A DNA stretch of 64,000 bases, taken from positions 1,685,001 through 1,749,000 of the forward strand of contig NZ_CP115543.1 of the NCBI RefSeq assembly GCF_031834615.1. Direction: 5' to 3'. The stretch comes from Stenotrophomonas aracearum (GTDB lineage: Bacteria; Pseudomonadota; Gammaproteobacteria; Xanthomonadales; Xanthomonadaceae). The notes under the pieces are model-generated. The model was not told where the DNA came from. It saw only the letters and a list, made by a program, of their open reading frames with translations, and made no database searches. This document shows positions 6,042 through 33,930 of this stretch, piece by piece. Every line of letters begins with the position of its first letter. Within the stretch, counting starts at the first letter, position 1. The translations under genes were made by a program, and so were the position numbers.

Positions 6042-6145
6042 GCCACCGTACCGGGGCGTCGGTTGTGCTGTCTGCCCGTGCGCACTACGATTTCGGGGTT
6101 GCGTGCGGCCGTTCCCGTGGTCGCACCGTTTCTACCGAGGTTTCC

Positions 6146-7402
6146 ATGGTCATCAAACCGCGTGTGCGCGGCTTCATCTGCGTCACCACCCATCCGGTCG
6201 GCTGCGACGCAGCCGTCAAGCAGCAGATCGATTACATCAAGGCGCAGCCGAAGATCCAGAACGGTCCCAAGCGCGTGCTGGTGCTGGGTGCGTCCACCGG
6301 TTATGGCCTGGCTGCGCGGATCACCGCCGCGTTCGGCAGCGGCGCGGCGACGCTGGGCGTGTTCTTCGAGCGTCCGGGTACCGAAACCAAGCCGGGCACG
6401 GCGGGCTGGTACAACTCGGCGGCGTTCCAGAAGTACGCTACGGAGGCCGGCCTGTACGCCCGCAGCGTGAACGGCGATGCGTTCTCGGACGAGGTGAAGG
6501 CCAAGGTCATCGAGCTGATCCGGCAGGACCTGGGCCAGGTCGACCAGGTGGTGTACAGCCTGGCCGCGCCGCGCCGCAAGCACCCGAAGACCGGTGAGGT
6601 GATCAGCTCGACGCTGAAGCCGATCGGCGCGCCGATCACCCTGCGCGGCCTGGACACCGACAAGGAAGTGATCACCGAAACCACGATCGAGCCGGCCACC
6701 CCGGAAGAGGTCGCGGGCACGGTGGCGGTGATGGGCGGCGAAGACTGGCAGATGTGGATCGACGCGCTGCTGGAGGCCGGTGTGCTGGCCGAGGGTGCGA
6801 CCACCACGGCCTTCACCTACGTGGGCGAGGAAATCACCCAGGCGATCTACTGGAACGGTTCGATCGGTGCGGCGAAGAAGGACCTGGACCAGAAGGTGCA
6901 GGGCATCCGCGCCAAGCTGGCCCCGCTGGGCGGCGACGCGCGCGTGTCGGTGCTGAAGGCGGTGGTCACGCAGGCCAGCTCGGCGATTCCGACCATGCCG
7001 CTGTACCTGTCGCTGCTGTTCAAGGTGATGAAGGAGCGCGGTACGCACGAGGGCTGCATCGAGCAGCTGGATACGCTGTACGACATCGTCTACGGCGGCA
7101 GGGACAGCGGCCCTGCCGTGGAGCGCCTGCGCCACCAGCTGCTGGCCGACGGCCGCACGGTGGAGCTGGTCGACGAAGCGGGCCGCCTGCGTGCGGACTA
7201 CAAGGAAATGGCGCCGGACGTGCAGGCCGAAGTCGTCGCGCTGTGGCCGCAGGTGACCAACGAGAACCTCTACGAGATCAGCGACCTGGCCGGCTACAAG
7301 GCCGACTTTCTGAAGCTGTTCGGGTTCGGCGTCGAAGGCGTGGATTACGAAGCGGATGTGGCGACGGATGTGGCGATTCCGGATCTGGTGGACCTGACCT
7401 GA
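6146..7402 (+). CDS. fabV: Enoyl-ACP (trans-2-enoyl-CoA) reductase FabV
   Basis: FabV catalyses the NADH-dependent last reduction of each fatty-acid elongation cycle. It is the enoyl reductase type found in Xanthomonas and relatives and is known from related species to be insensitive to triclosan. The 418-residue product matches the family length. It has the dinucleotide-binding motif [14 protein letters not shown] (residues 46-59) and the family's catalytic Y-x8-K pair, visible here as Tyr235 and Lys244 in [13 protein letters not shown]. The ATG at 6146 gives the standard start [17 protein letters not shown]. Upstream in-frame codons (from 6065) lack family similarity. It is probably monocistronic: it follows the secF terminator and is followed by its own hairpin. 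Confidence 0.95.
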
Positions 7403-7426: not shown

Positions 7427-7451
7427 ATGCCGCCCTTGTGGCGGCATTTTC
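7427..7451 (+). terminator. Intrinsic terminator after fabV
   Basis: An 8-bp stem (ATGCCGCC at 7427-7434 with GGCGGCAT at 7440-7447) is followed by a short T run. A separate inverted repeat (TTCGAAC and GTTCGAA) lies immediately before it, just after the stop codon. Confidence 0.8.
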
Positions 7452-7481
7452 GGTTCTACGGCGAAGAGCAGCGTCTCCCTA

Positions 7482-7626
7482 CTACGTGCAGGGGCGGCCG
7501 CCGGGCAGCCCCGCTCCGGGACACGCCGTGAACCCATCCATGGGGGCTGCTAGAAAACATCCATGTTTTCTAGCGTCCCTCCGGGGGCTACCCGGCGGCC
7601 GCCCCCATACAGGGTCGTGTGCGGTG
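7482..7626. repeat. Structured repeat element A, copy 1
   Basis: This 145-bp element is repeated at 32364-32508 with only three differences (positions 7536, 7608 and 7612) and no indels, while the flanks are unrelated. It folds as one large hairpin. The outer arms, 7491-7512 and 7584-7605, pair at 21 of 22 positions. Inside are two hairpins: CCC-ATCCAT-GGG (7533-7544) and a perfect 10-bp stem with loop ATCCAT (7549-7574). Read on the minus strand the loops are ATGGAT, and the second hairpin is followed by GGTTCACGGCG. Short open frames here (including one of 77 codons) follow the repeat, not a gene. I do not know whether this family has been described. Confidence 0.8.
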
Positions 7627-7634
7627 AGGAAGAG

Positions 7635-7658
7635 CAGCCGGGCAAGGCCCGGCTCTAC
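7635..7658 (-). repeat. SMAG/REP-type palindrome between elements A and B
   Basis: CAGCCGGGC, three bases, then GCCCGGCTCTAC; read on the minus strand it begins with GTAG. It lies between repeat elements A and B, and the second repeat block has a GTAG palindrome in the equivalent place (32518-32540). Confidence 0.8.
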
Positions 7659-7843
7659 CGCTTTTCGGTGACTCACCTGCCACTGTCGGAGGGTCGGCGG
7701 GGGTGGGTTTGAGGGGGCACGAGCCGCATGGATGCGGCGATGAGCCTACATGGATGTATTTACGGCGTCCCCCACAAACCCGCACCCGACGGCCCTGACC
7801 AGGGAAACCGCGCAGGCGGCGGCTGTTCGCACGAATCCAACAG
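7659..7843. repeat. Structured repeat element B, copy 1
   Basis: This is related to 32657-32840. The outer stem pairs GGGTTTG and GGGGG (7705-7711, 7713-7717) with CCCCC and CAAACCC (7769-7773, 7775-7781) around an A-A mismatch, with possible further pairing of GTCGG (7693-7697) to CCGAC (7786-7790). Inside are GCCGC-ATGGAT-GCGGC (7723-7738) and TAC-ATGGAT-GTA (7747-7758), then TTTACGGCGT. Hairpin order and the ACGGCG tag match element A read in reverse. The flanks of the stem (CGCTTTTC upstream, CCAGG..AACC..GCAGG downstream) are also shared with copy 2, so the element is longer than the hairpin itself. Confidence 0.75.
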
Positions 7844-7867
7844 CAGCCGGGCAGAGCCCGGCTCTAC
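7844..7867 (-). repeat. SMAG/REP-type palindrome closing the first repeat block
   Basis: CAGCCGGGC, AGA, then GCCCGGCTCTAC; on the minus strand it begins GTAGAGCC. It lies 25 bp beyond the 3' end of fimX and closes the composite repeat block. The second block ends with a similar palindrome (32841-32863) that lacks GTAG. Confidence 0.8.
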
Positions 7868-7892: not shown

Positions 7893-9962
7893 TCACCCGA
7901 AATCGAAGTTCATCACCGGGCCGGCCGGGCCGACGAACTCGCCCTGCACGTAATCGACGCCGGCACTGAACAGCATGCTCATCGAGTTCGCGTCCGCGAT
8001 GAACTCCGCGATCGTGCGGATGTTCGCTTCCTGCGCGCGCGTGGTGATTTCGCTGATCTTGTCTGCGTTTTCGCGGGTCCGCGCGAAATCGCTGGTGAAG
8101 TCGCGGTCCAGCTTCAGGAACTGCGGCTGGAAGTGCGCCAGCAGCTGGAACGAATCCAGCCCCGAACCGAACTGCTCCAACCCGATCCGGCAGCCCAGCG
8201 GCGCCACGTCCGCCAGGAACTGCTGCGCGTTGCGCAGGTGCGTGAACACCTTCGCTTCCGGCGCGTGCAGCCACAGACGCTCGCCCGGCACCCCGTGTGC
8301 CTCCAGCTCCCGACGGATCGTCGCCACCATCTGCGGGTCGTTGAACGATTCCGGCGTGATTTTCACCATCATGTGCGTCGCATGGCCCGCGCGTGCGCGC
8401 TGCCCCAGCACGCTGATCGCATGCCCCACCACCCAGCGGTTGATGTCCGCCAGCAGCCCGTGCTCCTCGGCAATGCCCAGGAAGGCCGCCGGGCTCACCA
8501 GCTCCCCGTTGTTGTCCAGGCGCAGGTACGCCTCGTACAGCTCCAGCGGCTCGCCACCCAGGTTCAGCACCGGCTGGTAGTGCAGCTGGAAACCGTCGCC
8601 GGCCAAAGCCTCGTTGATCCGCGCCACCCAGCGCTGGATGCGCTCTTCCTCCACCCGGTCCACCGCCGCCGGATCGAAGATCCGGCTCGTGTTGCCCAGT
8701 TCCGACGCCGCCTGCTGGCATTCCGTCGCACGCGCCAGCACCTGCCCGACGCTCGCGATCTTCTCGCCCACCTGCACGCCGCCAATGCTCACCGTCACCG
8801 TCGCCGAACGCTCGCCGATGCTGAACACCTGCGCCGCGAAGGCCTCCCGGATCCGGTCCGCCAGCGCCTCGGTGTCCGCGAACGCACCCTCGGTCAGCAC
8901 CGCCAGGCTGTGCTCGCCGTAGCGCGCCAGCTGCGCACTGTCGCCCACCGTATCCGCCAGCACCTTCGCCAGCGCCGCGATCAGCGCATCGGCCGAATCC
9001 AGCCCGATGTCCGGCAACAGCCGCGCGTAATGATCCGGCTCCACCAGCAGCAGCCCGAACCGGCCCTCGCTGCGGCCCGCCTGCGCCACCGCGTTTTCCA
9101 CGTGCAGCATGAAGGTCTGCCGGTTGAGCAGCCCCGTCACCTGGTCGCGCTGGCGCAGGTCCTCCACCTCGCGGGCCAGTTCCGGGTCGAACTCCATCCG
9201 GCGGCGGAACACCACCTGCAGGCAGCTCTCGCCCTCATAGGTCGCCGGCGTGAATTCCATGGTCGCGGCGAACACCGCGCCGTCCTGGTTGCGCGCATCC
9301 ACCTGGTACTGCGGCGGCGGCGGCTCGCCCTTGCTGAGCGACTTCAACAGCTGCTTGAAGCCTTCCACGTGCTGCGGCGCAACCATGTCCAGCAGCGAAA
9401 TGCCTTCCACGTCGTCGAACGCCTCGTACCCGAACATCTCCAGGTAGGCCTCGTTGGCGCGGATGTGCATGCCCTCGTGGACGTAGGCGATGGGGTCGCG
9501 CGAAGACGCGATCAGCGCATCGCAGCGGCGCTCCGTCTCGCGCATCTGCGCCTCGATCCGGCGCAGCCCGCGGCGCGCGTGCAGGTCGGTCCACTCATTG
9601 CGCACCACCGCCAGCAGGTGTTCCGGGCGGTTGCGCAGGGCGACCGCGCGGATGCCGTTGGCACTGGCTTCCACCCATTCCGACTCGTTGATGCTCTCGG
9701 CCAGCAGGATCATCGGAATGTCCTTGCCGCTGGCCGCGATCTGCTGGGTCACCTGCAGCAGCGGAATGCTCTGCGCCGGCGCCGCCAGGACAAGGTCGAT
9801 CGGCTGGCTGCCGATGATCTGCGCCAGCTCCTCGGCGTTCTGCGGGCGCGCCGGGCGCACCGCGATGCCGCTGTTGCGCAGCAGGCTGACGATGGTTTCG
9901 GCGTTCTCCCCGCTGTCATCCACGATCAGCAGGCGGACGGTGATGTCATTCGCGTTCTGCAT
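7893..9962 (-). CDS. fimX: FimX-like degenerate GGDEF-EAL c-di-GMP effector (type IV pili)
   Basis: The 689-residue protein has the FimX layout: receiver-like domain (about 1-125), PAS (about 145-260), GGDEF (about 265-430) and EAL (about 445-689). All catalytic signatures are degenerate. The receiver has DLVLAAP where the phospho-acceptor aspartate would sit. GGDEF is replaced by ARYGEHSL (346-353). EAL reads EAY (477-479), and the usual DDFG is EQFG. In Xanthomonas and Pseudomonas such a FimX binds c-di-GMP through the inactive EAL domain and passes the signal to a PilZ protein and the PilB motor of type IV pili. The same role is inferred here; the protein should be neither a cyclase nor a phosphodiesterase. 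It is probably cotranscribed with the two minus-strand genes upstream, 90 bp from the flavoprotein gene. Confidence 0.85.
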   Translation of the reverse strand: MQNANDITVRLLIVDDSGENAETIVSLLRNSGIAVRPARPQNAEELAQIIGSQPIDLVLAAPAQSIPLLQVTQQIAASGKDIPMILLAESINESEWVEASANGIRAVALRNRPEHLLAVVRNEWTDLHARRGLRRIEAQMRETERRCDALIASSRDPIAYVHEGMHIRANEAYLEMFGYEAFDDVEGISLLDMVAPQHVEGFKQLLKSLSKGEPPPPQYQVDARNQDGAVFAATMEFTPATYEGESCLQVVFRRRMEFDPELAREVEDLRQRDQVTGLLNRQTFMLHVENAVAQAGRSEGRFGLLLVEPDHYARLLPDIGLDSADALIAALAKVLADTVGDSAQLARYGEHSLAVLTEGAFADTEALADRIREAFAAQVFSIGERSATVTVSIGGVQVGEKIASVGQVLARATECQQAASELGNTSRIFDPAAVDRVEEERIQRWVARINEALAGDGFQLHYQPVLNLGGEPLELYEAYLRLDNNGELVSPAAFLGIAEEHGLLADINRWVVGHAISVLGQRARAGHATHMMVKITPESFNDPQMVATIRRELEAHGVPGERLWLHAPEAKVFTHLRNAQQFLADVAPLGCRIGLEQFGSGLDSFQLLAHFQPQFLKLDRDFTSDFARTRENADKISEITTRAQEANIRTIAEFIADANSMSMLFSAGVDYVQGEFVGPAGPVMNFDFG

Positions 9963-31366: not shown

Positions 31367-32254
31367 TCAGTCGATATAGCGCTTGAGCAGGTCGCCATAG
31401 GCATCGATGCGGCGGTCGCGCAGGAACGGCCAGATGCGGCGCACATGTTCGCTGCGCTGCAGGTCGACGTCGCACACAAGCACGGTAGGCTCACCGCCGG
31501 CTTCGGCGATGAACTCGCCCTGCGGACCGAGCACGTGGCTGTTGCCCCAGAACTGGATGCCGGACGCGCCCAGCGGCGACGCCTCATGGCCCACGCGGTT
31601 GCAGCTCAGCACCGGCACGCCGTTGGCCACGGCATGGCCACGATGGCTCAGCACCCACGCATCGCGCTGGCGGCCCTGCTCATCCTTCTGGTCGTCCGGG
31701 TCCCAGCCGATGGCGGTGGGGTAAAGCAGCAGTTCCGCACCGGCCAGCGCCATCAGGCGCGCGGCTTCCGGATACCACTGGTCCCAGCACACCAGCACGC
31801 CAAGGCGGCCCACCGAGGCGTCGATCGGCTTGAAGCCGATGTCGCCGGGGGTGAAGTAGAACTTCTCATAGAAGCCGGGATCGTCCGGGATATGCATCTT
31901 GCGGTACTTGCCCAGCAACGTGCCGTCCTTCTCGAAGACCACCGCCGTGTTGTGGTACAGGCCGGCGGCGCGACGCTCGAACAGCGACCCGACGATCACC
32001 ACGCCATGCTTTTTGGCGAGCGCGCCGAGTCGTTCAGTGCTGGGGCCCGGGATCGGCTCGGCCAGGTCGAACTCATCGACCGACTCGTGCTGGCAGAAGT
32101 ACGCACCGTTGTGCAGTTCCTGCAGCAGCACCAGCTTGGCACCCTGGGCAGCCGCTTCAGCCACGCGCGTTTCGATCACGGCCAGGTTGGCGGTCGCGTC
32201 ACCGTGGTTGCGCTCCTGGATCAGGGCGACGGAAAGGGTGTGGCGTGAGCTCAT
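31367..32254 (-). CDS. aguB: N-carbamoylputrescine amidase AguB
   Basis: AguB hydrolyses N-carbamoylputrescine to putrescine, carbon dioxide and ammonia, the second step from agmatine. The 295-residue protein is a nitrilase-superfamily hydrolase with the Glu-Lys-Cys triad visible: Glu46 (LLQELHNGAYF), Lys119 (GKYRKMHIPDDPGFYEK) and Cys156 (VLVCWDQWYPEAA). Length and N-terminus match the family. Its pathway partner aguA lies upstream on the same strand, but 638 bp of structured repeat separate them. Two further genes (GNAT and TraB family) follow closely downstream. Confidence 0.95.
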   Translation of the reverse strand: MSSRHTLSVALIQERNHGDATANLAVIETRVAEAAAQGAKLVLLQELHNGAYFCQHESVDEFDLAEPIPGPSTERLGALAKKHGVVIVGSLFERRAAGLYHNTAVVFEKDGTLLGKYRKMHIPDDPGFYEKFYFTPGDIGFKPIDASVGRLGVLVCWDQWYPEAARLMALAGAELLLYPTAIGWDPDDQKDEQGRQRDAWVLSHRGHAVANGVPVLSCNRVGHEASPLGASGIQFWGNSHVLGPQGEFIAEAGGEPTVLVCDVDLQRSEHVRRIWPFLRDRRIDAYGDLLKRYID

Positions 32255-32363: not shown

Positions 32364-32508
32364 CTACGTGCAGGGGCGGCCGCCGGGCAGCCCCGCTCCG
32401 GGACACGCCGTGAACCCGTCCATGGGGGCTGCTAGAAAACATCCATGTTTTCTAGCGTCCCTCCGGGGGCTACCCGGCGGCCGCCCCCACACATGGTCGT
32501 GTGCGGTG
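32364..32508. repeat. Structured repeat element A, copy 2
   Basis: This is 142 of 145 bases identical to 7482-7626, with sharp borders (CTACGTGC at the left, GTGTGCGGTG at the right). It has the same outer 22-bp imperfect arms and the same two inner hairpins. One of the three differences falls in a loop (GTCCAT instead of ATCCAT), and none disturbs a stem. It lies between aguA and aguB, in the intergenic DNA of what should be one transcription unit. Confidence 0.8.
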
Positions 32509-32517
32509 GGAAAGGGC

Positions 32518-32540
32518 GGACACGCATGGCGTGTCACTAC
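32518..32540 (-). repeat. SMAG/REP-type palindrome in the second repeat block
   Basis: GGACACGC, ATG, GCGTGTC then ACTAC; it reads GTAGTGACACGC on the minus strand. It occupies the same place, between A and B, as the GTAG palindrome at 7635-7658, but the arm sequence is different. Confidence 0.75.
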
Positions 32541-32656
32541 GCGCGTGCGACCGTCCGCAGGGTAGGGTCGGTTCCCAAACGACCGCCGTGAAATCGCCCG
32601 CGCCCGGTGACGCATGAACATGATCGGCATCGCGACGCCGGCCTACGGCCGGCACC

Positions 32657-32863
32657 CGCTTTTCCCGTGGCCACCGCCACACTGTCAAAGGGTCGCCCGG
32701 GGTCGGTTTGCGGGGGACTCGGCGCCATGGATGGCGTCCGCGTAGCCTCCATGGACGGATTCACGGCGACCCCGCAAACCGGCACCGGGCGGCCCAAGCC
32801 AGGTAACCCGTGCAGCCCACGGCCGTTCGCCCAAAACCAAAAGCGCCGGGCAAAGCCCGGCGC
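32657..32863. repeat. Structured repeat element B, copy 2, with terminal palindrome
   Basis: The outer stem GGTTTGCGGGG (32705-32715) pairs perfectly with CCCCGCAAACC (32770-32780). Inner hairpins are CGCC-ATGGAT-GGCG (32723-32736) and TCC-ATGGAC-GGA (32748-32759), followed by TTCACGGCGA. Compared with copy 1 the stems differ by paired changes while loops and the ACGGCG tag are kept. A palindrome without GTAG (GCGCCGGGC..GCCCGGCGC, 32843-32863) closes the block 29 bp from the 3' end of aguA. Another palindrome (GCCGGCCTACGGCCGGC, 32638-32654) precedes it. Confidence 0.75.
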
Positions 32864-32892: not shown

Positions 32893-33930
32893 TTACCCAG
32901 CCAACACACCGGCAGGCAACTGCATGGTGATGCAGTGCAGGCTGCCGTTCTGCCAGATCAGCGAGCGGCAGGGGACCTGCACGATCTCGTGGTTCGGGTA
33001 GGCCCGGGCCAGCACGTCGCGCGCCGCGTCGTCCGCGACGTCGCCGTACGCCGGCATCAGCACCGCACCGTTAAGGATCAGGTAGTTCGCATACGACGCC
33101 GCCAGCCGGCGACCCTCGTCGATCACCGGCCGTGCCCACGGCAGCGGGAACAGCCGGTACGGCTGGCCCCCGGCCGTGCGCAGCGCCGCCAGCTCGTTGC
33201 CCATCGCCTGCAGCTCCGCGAAATGCGAATCCGTGCTGTCATCACAGGCCTGGTACACGATGCTGTCCACCGACGCGAAACGCGCCAGCGTATCGATGTG
33301 TGCGTCCGTGTCGTCGCCTTCCAGATAGCCGTGGTCCAGCCACAGCACCCGGTCCTGCGCCAGCCAGCCCGCCATGTCCGCGCTCAGCGACGCCCGGTCG
33401 CGCTCCGGATGACGCTCGTGCAGGCACTGCCACGTCGTCAGCAGCGTGCCCGCCCCGTCGGTCTCGATCGCACCGCCTTCCAGCGCGAACGGAATGCTCT
33501 TCAGCTCTGCGTCCGCGAACAGACCCGCCTGGTGCAGCACCCCCACCAGCTGGTCGTCCAGGCTCGCCTCGAACTTCCCGCCCCAGCCCGTGAAACGGAA
33601 ATCCAGCAGCAGGAAGCCGCCGTCCGCACGGCGCAGCGTGATCGGGCCCGAATCGCGCAGCCACGTGTCGTCGTAGGGCGCCGTGACGAACCGCACCCGG
33701 TCCGTATCGATCCGGTTCGAGCGCAGGCGCGCGTCCGCGTACGCCTCCAGGTCGTCATCGGCCACGATGATCACCACCGGCTGGAAGCGGGTGATGGCCG
33801 CGACCAGCGCGATGTAGGTGTCCTCGACGTCACCCAGGCGGTCGGCCCAGTCGGTGTCGGCGTGGGGCCAGGCGATCAGGATGGCGGACTGGGATTCCCA
33901 TTCGGCCGGAAAACGGAGCGTGTCGTTCAT
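32893..33930 (-). CDS. aguA: Agmatine deiminase AguA
   Basis: AguA converts agmatine to N-carbamoylputrescine and ammonia. The 345-residue protein is of the guanidine-modifying (peptidylarginine deiminase-like) superfamily, with the conserved blocks IAWPHADTDWA, DTWLRDSGP, WGGKF, EGGAIETDG (Glu-Gly-Gly), HIDTLARF (His-x-Asp) and the catalytic Cys333 in GSLHCITMQ. With AguB it forms a two-step route from arginine-derived agmatine to putrescine. It is the first gene of the pair, and a repeat block lies between its stop codon and aguB. A hairpin (CCCGCCGG..CCGGCGGG, 33947-33965) lies upstream between it and the next gene. Confidence 0.95.
   Translation of the reverse strand: MNDTLRFPAEWESQSAILIAWPHADTDWADRLGDVEDTYIALVAAITRFQPVVIIVADDDLEAYADARLRSNRIDTDRVRFVTAPYDDTWLRDSGPITLRRADGGFLLLDFRFTGWGGKFEASLDDQLVGVLHQAGLFADAELKSIPFALEGGAIETDGAGTLLTTWQCLHERHPERDRASLSADMAGWLAQDRVLWLDHGYLEGDDTDAHIDTLARFASVDSIVYQACDDSTDSHFAELQAMGNELAALRTAGGQPYRLFPLPWARPVIDEGRRLAASYANYLILNGAVLMPAYGDVADDAARDVLARAYPNHEIVQVPCRSLIWQNGSLHCITMQLPAGVLAG

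Follow-up and report, generated by a model that had tools for sequence, protein, structure and literature searches.

A family of palindromic, Y-tipped repeats in Stenotrophomonas aracearum and other gammaproteobacteria, related in sequence to the Yersinia repeat YPAL/RU-2

What is the structured block that lies behind a fabV-type gene of Stenotrophomonas aracearum, and why does it recur about 25 kb away? We analysed a window of 64,000 nucleotides (1685001-1749000 of the single-contig 4.33 Mb genome). A preliminary description of this DNA had read the block as an undescribed element of four parts: A, a GTAG palindrome, B and a small palindrome. The features of the two blocks are as follows, in window positions.

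6065-7402, + strand: gene for a fabV-type enoyl reductase, left neighbour of block 1 (Pfam)
7427-7451, + strand: hairpin and T run resembling an intrinsic terminator, 3' of the fabV-type gene (by eye)
7462-7626, + strand: Y element of subfamily A including its conserved left flank (AGCAGCGT...); 23 genome places, match to model R1
7509-7588, + strand: Y core of the first A copy (model R1)
7634-7658, - strand: GTAG palindrome, SMAG-type REP (sequence; consensus GTAGTGCCGGCCGCTGGCCGGCA in a section of PMC2613905)
7668-7815, - strand: Y element of subfamily B1; about 33 B-like places, match to R1, 28-nt exact match to RU-2
7704-7782, core strand minus: Y core of the window B1 (model R1)
7843-7867, - strand: GTAG palindrome no. 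2, SMAG-type REP (sequence)
7893-9962, - strand: gene for a GGDEF/EAL protein, right neighbour of block 1 (Pfam)
31367-32254, - strand: carbon-nitrogen hydrolase gene, left of block 2 (Pfam)
32364-32508, + strand: Y element of subfamily A, second copy (core 32391-32470); 142/145 against the first copy, match to R1
32518-32540, - strand: GTAG palindrome of a different REP sequence type (sequence)
32557-32619, no strand: further dispersed repeat (GGTAGGGTCGGTTCCCAAACGACCG...CCCGGTGACGCATGA; by eye)
about 32677-32812, - strand: Y element of subfamily B2 (core 32703-32782); match to R1, B1/B2 comparison
32844-32863, no strand: small palindrome CGCCGGGC...GCCCGGCG (sequence)
32893-33930, - strand: PAD_porph-family deiminase gene, right of block 2 (Pfam)

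The neighbours of block 2 are probably aguB (the hydrolase) and aguA (the deiminase), names that we inferred. By eye, the left flank that is repeated among A copies extends approximately 20 bp 5' of 7482. The dispersed repeat at 32557-32619 (ending ...CCCGGTNACGCATGA) was also seen by eye in the spacers of several Y sites, both in this genome and in related ones.

One family in two orientations

Much of the preliminary description was borne out. Both loci show A, a GTAG palindrome, B and a small palindrome in this succession, and the second has the extra repeat. The A copies (7482-7626 and 32364-32508) align without indels and differ at 7536, 7608 and 7612. The B copies are diverged (107/153 aligned columns match). 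This had been taken to mean that the parts differ in age or in constraint; a better explanation is that the two B's are members of different subfamilies, B1 and B2. A codon-usage gene caller placed 0 genes inside either block, and a coding element is ruled out by the lack of a coding score. None of the four flanking genes encodes a transposase (Pfam), and the window contains none of the genome's three Y1_Tnp matches.

We found A and B to be one kind of element in two orientations, A being read on the plus strand and B as its reverse complement. This Y element is a palindrome of 130-150 bp. Its conserved apex (~52 nt) sits atop a long hairpin and forms a three-way (Y) junction with two small hairpins. 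A and B have in common the motif GCCGT(G/A)AA-NNN-(A/G)TCCAT-NNN-GGCT, followed by the second small hairpin with an ATCC(A/C)T loop, and a long outer stem. The predicted fold of A had z = -5.4 and that of B z = -2.1, with 8/200 shuffles of B folding equally well.

The reading of the block as a structured, multi-copy, non-coding repeat was supported by compensatory changes and by the number of copies. We aligned 21 chosen cores (20 of 46 distinct cores and one further copy) with MAFFT, without fitting them to the structure. Standard pairs occupied 89.7% of 544 pair cells, compared to 39-56% with the partner slid, and both sides had changed in 93/544 cells, compared to 14-32. In a 27-row alignment from across the class, fitted to the model, both sides had changed in 215/721 cells, compared to 33-46 when slid. 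Of five measures of covariation, one (further pair types) gave no excess; shuffles were as high in 500/500 trials for the 21 cores and in 218/500 for the class alignment.

Using a covariance model (R1; 80 positions, 27 pairs), we found at least 69 Y cores in the chromosome at E <= 1e-4. This is a lower bound, as 150 of 1736 candidates were scored. The cores comprise 23 A, 19 B1, 12 B2, 14 others and one without fetched sequence. They lie at 48 sites, of which 27 hold one core and 21 hold two. Every one of the 21 double sites is convergent, + then -, with 111-293 bp between cores. Sequence searches placed A at 23 chromosomal places over at least 96 nt (best E 5e-72), 13 of them at least 95% identical to the window copy, and B at approximately 33, after short cross-matches were set aside and split copies joined.

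The unity of the four parts did not hold up. A and B are inverted whenever they are together, but they do not always co-occur: 12/23 A copies are partnered within 700 bp and 11/23 are not. B copies are also found alone or with other subfamilies. The GTAG palindromes in the spacers fit the published SMAG REP type, as does the second one of block 1.

Several known repeats invite comparison. SMAG and other GTAG REPs, and BIMEs with a RAYT, resemble Y elements in being paired, inverted, intergenic palindromes in Stenotrophomonas. However, REPs are 20-40 bp long and carry a GTAG tag, whereas Y elements are 130-150 bp long, lack the tag and adjoin REPs. Neither A nor B is a short GTAG-tagged palindrome; the tag sits on the spacer palindromes. 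Integron attC sites, at which IntI recombines the cassettes of an array, are hairpins in which the fold is conserved more than the sequence, and Y elements are like them in this. ERIC/RU-1 (127 bp) is, like the Y element, a palindromic intergenic repeat, and affects mRNA according to a passage of PMC2229807; for ERIC the analysis covered its primer sites, which were located in E. coli.

Homology to YPAL/RU-2 and distribution among genomes

By sequence comparison, the Y core is homologous to the Yersinia repeat YPAL/RU-2. Window B and RU-2, as printed in Table 1b within PMC2759123, have 28 contiguous identical nucleotides in common (GACGCCGTAAATACATCCATGTAGGCTC), and 0/1000 shuffles were as good. 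Window A alone did not match RU-2 better than shuffles (62/1000 as good); it joins the YPAL-related family through the core that it has in common with B. YPAL/RU-2 (~168 bp, of which 107 nt correspond to RF02770) and Y elements have the same apex and a similar predicted fold, and both are multi-copy, intergenic and variably present between related genomes. They differ in stem sequence, and Y elements have a paired convergent layout with REPs in the spacer. The published range of YPAL/RU-2 is Yersinia and Erwinia, whereas Y elements are found across the class.

RU-2 is identical to the consensus of Rfam family Ysr224 (RF02770) at 105/107 positions. On this sequence match, the 'Ysr224 sRNA' is the YPAL/RU-2 repeat, and counts of the sRNA made with RF02770 may therefore count repeats; some genome-wide counts with this model would be repeat counts. 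According to sections of PMC9029176, Ysr224 is among the most abundant 'sRNAs' and is listed as a temperature-responsive Yersinia transcript. Our comparisons connect both this 'Yersinia' repeat and the Rfam 'sRNA', one of the most prevalent listed, to a single repeat family that is spread across gammaproteobacterial chromosomes.

The block had been called undescribed. This stands insofar as an Rfam scan of the window gave no match at gathering level (window B reached 20.1 bits with RF02770; threshold 70), and fails insofar as the core is homologous to YPAL/RU-2, by sequence the same repeat as Ysr224. In the best-ranked part of larger literature result sets, we found no paper placing YPAL in Stenotrophomonas or across the class. 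In the relevant passages of PMC3733652, YPAL is named a Yersinia MITE and Stenotrophomonas appears for REPs only. The kind of element is already known, from Yersinia; its spread and the odd evolution of its stem (below) were not found described in the literature searched.

R1 matched 47/274 sampled gammaproteobacterial genomes (42/221 genera, our genome included; best 17 candidates scored per genome) and 39/151 genomes of the order (18/64 genera). For comparison, parts of PMC2847712 give 2-144 YPAL copies per Yersinia genome and 3 in E. coli. The spread is patchy: genome G004, of the same genus, had no R1 match. Carriers of a 28-letter tip pattern (63 stretches) include Methylotuvimicrobium, Sedimenticola, Acidihalobacter, Thiohalomonas, Parahaliea and Idiomarina. 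In genome G097 the family is uniform, with 14/15 fetched copies near-identical.

The Rfam model gave further evidence for the homology to YPAL. At E <= 0.01, RF02770 matched 24/29 R1-positive and 1/13 R1-negative genomes, and did not match G002, which was unscored with R1. Its cut-off was reached in 0/43 genomes (best 51.3 bits), and 14 control genomes gave 0 matches. At E <= 1, sub-threshold Ysr224 matches were present in 7/18 class loci (L146, L152, L143, L138, L155, L135 and L142), on the R1 strand and ending 10 nt short of the end of the R1 match. At L152 two MIR918 matches outscore Ysr224 (41.5 bits against a gathering score of 268), which serves as a caution that a long hairpin can match a model by chance.

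Among 72,556 plasmids and 50,697 phages we found 0 credible copies with three queries, a set that did not include A and that distant relatives could escape. The weak partial matches were to two alphaproteobacterial plasmids and seven mycobacteriophage records. Viral contigs gave 0 matches to one 28-letter tip pattern.

We found that the presence of Y elements varies between related genomes. Both flanks of three intervals were found in 26/30, 26/30 and 6/30 fetched loci (58 in total). A Y core was present in 5/26 loci at the fabV-EAL interval, for which 61 genus genomes were searched: two cores in our genome and in G303, of the same species, one in three others and none in 21. At the second and third intervals, nicknamed 'hslU' and 'leuB' by eye from their flanks, Y cores were present in 4/26 loci and in 3 of the 6 usable loci of 30. 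In G303 the A of the fabV-EAL interval is nearly the same, and the spacer and B differ (by eye; B2 type in place of B1), which argues that units are exchanged between places. Passages of PMC2229807 give YPAL target duplications of 3-26 bp; at the intervals compared here, the empty sites were too diverged for duplications to be read.

Conserved tips and private arms

We compared the arms of Y elements within and between copies in three genomes. Between 6 and 30 bp from the tip, the arms of a copy are 97% (G119), 98% (G268) and 93% (G207) self-complementary. In contrast, the same region is only 39%, 44% and 44% identical between copies, while the tips average 85-89% (9/11 copies of G119 and 12/13 of G268 were used, with cores other than 80 nt omitted). 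Letter-shuffled arms were 36%, 28% and 28% identical, indicating that the arms of G119 are alike at chance level and those of G268 and G207 weakly alike. By eye, an outer arm motif recurs in many copies of G268. Tips were identical in 6 of the 36 copy pairs of G119, and the arms of these pairs were 21-38% identical. Intermediate values came from G113 (0.82 self-complementary, 0.60 identical between copies; 6/120 pairs with identical tips and arms 0.33-0.92). Arm complementarity falls towards background approximately 30-36 bp from the tip.

In our own genome, arms are common within a subfamily, and alleles of tip 1 (CCC/GGG, TAC/GTA, CAAG) recur across arm types (by eye). The presence of the same alleles on different arm types suggests that tips are exchanged.

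We searched for long hairpins (arms of at least 16 bp). In 20 kb of G119 all of them had a Y tip (6/6, two being one element), as did both in G268. Non-Y hairpins made up 1/2 in a stretch of G113 and 2/2 in a stretch of G278. As the G119 stretch has no long hairpin without a Y tip, the arms appear to come with the tip, either made at insertion or co-evolving while tips are exchanged. We think it unlikely that arms were captured by insertion into pre-existing long palindromes: the long hairpins in the stretches of G119 and G268 are all Y-tipped, but those in the stretches of G113 and G278 include others. Hypermutable arms are also thought unlikely. Between Methylotuvimicrobium buryatense and wino1 (flanks ~91-95% identical), the left arm was unchanged at both common sites and the right arm at the one site compared.

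These comparisons raise the tentative possibility that the inherited unit is only the ~52-nt Y tip. The adjacent 30-36 bp of host DNA would be copied as a perfect inverted duplication at insertion, or tips would be exchanged repeatedly between old palindromes with arms drifting in step. If so, the Y tip would be a kind of mobile sequence that makes, or takes over, a palindrome of its own wherever it sits. The pattern of common tips and private arms makes palindrome making and upkeep a testable question. Y elements are also a case in which even strong covariation is not in itself proof of a function as RNA, since the two arms may change in step as DNA.

G.T pairs are tolerated in folded RNA or single-stranded DNA. 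On the core strand, the non-Watson-Crick arm cells were A.C 63, G.T 20 and others 45 (binomial p 2e-6 for A.C vs G.T; some copies are related, and L135, L136 and L137 are counted twice). The rows were 9/11 from G119, 12/13 from G268, 15/16 from G113 (L390 being out of register) and 18/25 class loci. In the 18-locus class set alone, A.C outnumbered G.T by 18 to 2. There was no such excess in G119 (3 to 2), G268 (4 to 4) or G207 (6 to 4) alone, and no wobble asymmetry in our own genome (166/2359 vs 149/2247). The A.C excess on the core strand points to the opposite strand as the wobble-tolerant one, and hence as the would-be folding strand.

The loop of tip 2 is an insertion point. Two Y copies of M. 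buryatense (L204 4400-4900 and 5800-6250) carry small multi-hairpin inserts of 115 and 150 nt in this loop, with the right part in common; the wino1 orthologues have short loops without these inserts. In our genome, two B1 copies (1773150-1773420 and 4240090-4240330) have an 81-nt multi-hairpin insert there, with one difference by eye between the two. Also by eye, the Y core and stem of G097 loci L356 and L359 are inverted relative to the flanking repeat when compared with L357, as if flipped.

Genomic context and candidate explanations

In our own genome Y sites show a bias towards the 3' ends of genes. Sequence was available for 47 sites: 45 have a called gene on either side, and 2 run into a called ORF at the edge of a segment, so that context was counted for 45/48 sites (one was without fetched sequence). 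With both neighbours called by the codon-usage gene caller, 27 sites are convergent, 18 tandem and 0 divergent; as background, the 41 pairs of adjacent genes in the window divide into 4 convergent, 34 tandem and 3 divergent.

This 3'-end bias was not seen class-wide. The 72 scorable of 95 sites were 12 convergent, 50 tandem and 10 divergent, against a background at the class loci of 78, 294 and 74 adjacent pairs. The set covered 67/73 (six weakest omitted), 26/27 and 8/11 (three duplicates omitted) matches. The six class-wide sites with several cores were + then - (four), + + (one) and - - (one). The preference may be local, or may be hidden class-wide by crude gene calls. YPAL reportedly inserts behind stop codons or at terminators, from a 2006 study; our own-genome sites are in keeping with this, and the class-wide sites are without such a bias.

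What best explains an established family of multi-copy, Y-tipped long hairpins that is spread among genomes, polymorphic between related ones and homologous to YPAL? We favor, with moderate confidence, non-autonomous miniature palindromic insertion elements of one family, two per block and head to head in intergenic DNA, which would move by way of a folded single strand and be tolerated where genes end. An enzyme acting in trans would recognise the folded apex on single-stranded DNA, and copies would insert into intergenic DNA, often beside terminators. Selection would remove copies in coding or promoter regions, leaving them mainly between convergent genes in our own genome. Through recombination between copies, tips, spacers and complete B units would change places, and the A-REP-B-REP block would be the resulting mosaic. 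In transcripts, the hairpin may shield mRNA 3' ends or keep them apart, as has been reported for YPAL; we take this to be a side effect.

Some results count against insertion elements. Conservation of the tips alongside divergence of the arms is not what one would expect of selfish copies in decay. The lack of a credible plasmid or phage copy would be unusual for a mobile element. We also count against this explanation the lack of a class-wide 3'-end bias and of a wobble asymmetry in our own genome. The covariation measure without excess, the shuffle-level match of window A to RU-2, the unreadable target duplications and the failure to detect Y1_Tnp in 5/27 genomes (below) weigh on the same side.

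It is rather unlikely, in our judgement, that each copy is instead selected as an RNA 3'-end element that stops exonucleases, blocks read-through or separates convergent transcripts. Consistent with such a function are the excess of convergent and lack of divergent own-genome sites, the maintenance of pairing while arm sequence changes, and the temperature response of Ysr224 noted above. In the 'hslU' interval, relatives lacking the element (G307 and G018 among them) have, by eye, a terminator-like hairpin, and none was noticed in our own genome. YPAL is reported to be expressed with upstream genes, possibly influencing their transcripts (a section of PMC2229807). However, single tandem sites show no sense preference (5 sense and 6 antisense in our own genome, 24 and 21 class-wide), and window A already lies downstream of a terminator-like hairpin. 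Near-identical copies occur at many places, and the A.C excess, intolerable for RNA, falls on the core strand, the one to which Ysr224 corresponds.

A further proposal, which we consider improbable, is that RAYT (Y1) transposases mobilise Y elements together with the GTAG REPs. REPs occupy the spacers of Y pairs, abundant REPs go with a cognate RAYT gene (a part of PMC3686654), and Y1_Tnp (PF01797) was detected in 22/27 genomes tested, including our own. But it was undetected in the other five, of which four are copy-rich, each with at least 12 Y copies: G268 (99% complete), G103 (97%), G099 (88%) and G109 (81%). The cognate Y1 transposase expected of a REP or BIME thus failed to appear in these genomes. 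In our genome all PF01797 matches (448950, 1072849 and 3461347) are more than 9 kb from the Y cores found. As far as PF01797 detects RAYT, it is not a general answer.

That the A-REP-B-REP block is one composite transposon moving as a unit is very improbable and largely refuted. In its favor, A accompanies B1 in one relative order at 8 sites and has a partner of some kind at 12. However, the remaining 11 of the 23 A copies stand singly, B units are also paired with B's of other subfamilies, and the same locus in the same-species genome has A with B2, not B1.

Two arcs of the chromosome hold none of the Y sites found, one of 787 kb (4260457-719484, through dnaA at position 1) and one of 728 kb (1884020-2612055), with 46 sites elsewhere. 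Two gaps this large occurred in 0/100,000 random placements. The 728-kb arc is roughly opposite dnaA; GC skew, sampled at 20 stretches, was not strong enough to locate the terminus. At 1413808-1415205 and 4238718-4240282, a small SymE-like toxin gene lies between two convergent Y pairs that are 1.2-1.4 kb from each other, matching PF08845 with E 3e-5 (below the curated cut-off) at the first site and 1.9e-8 (above it) at the second.
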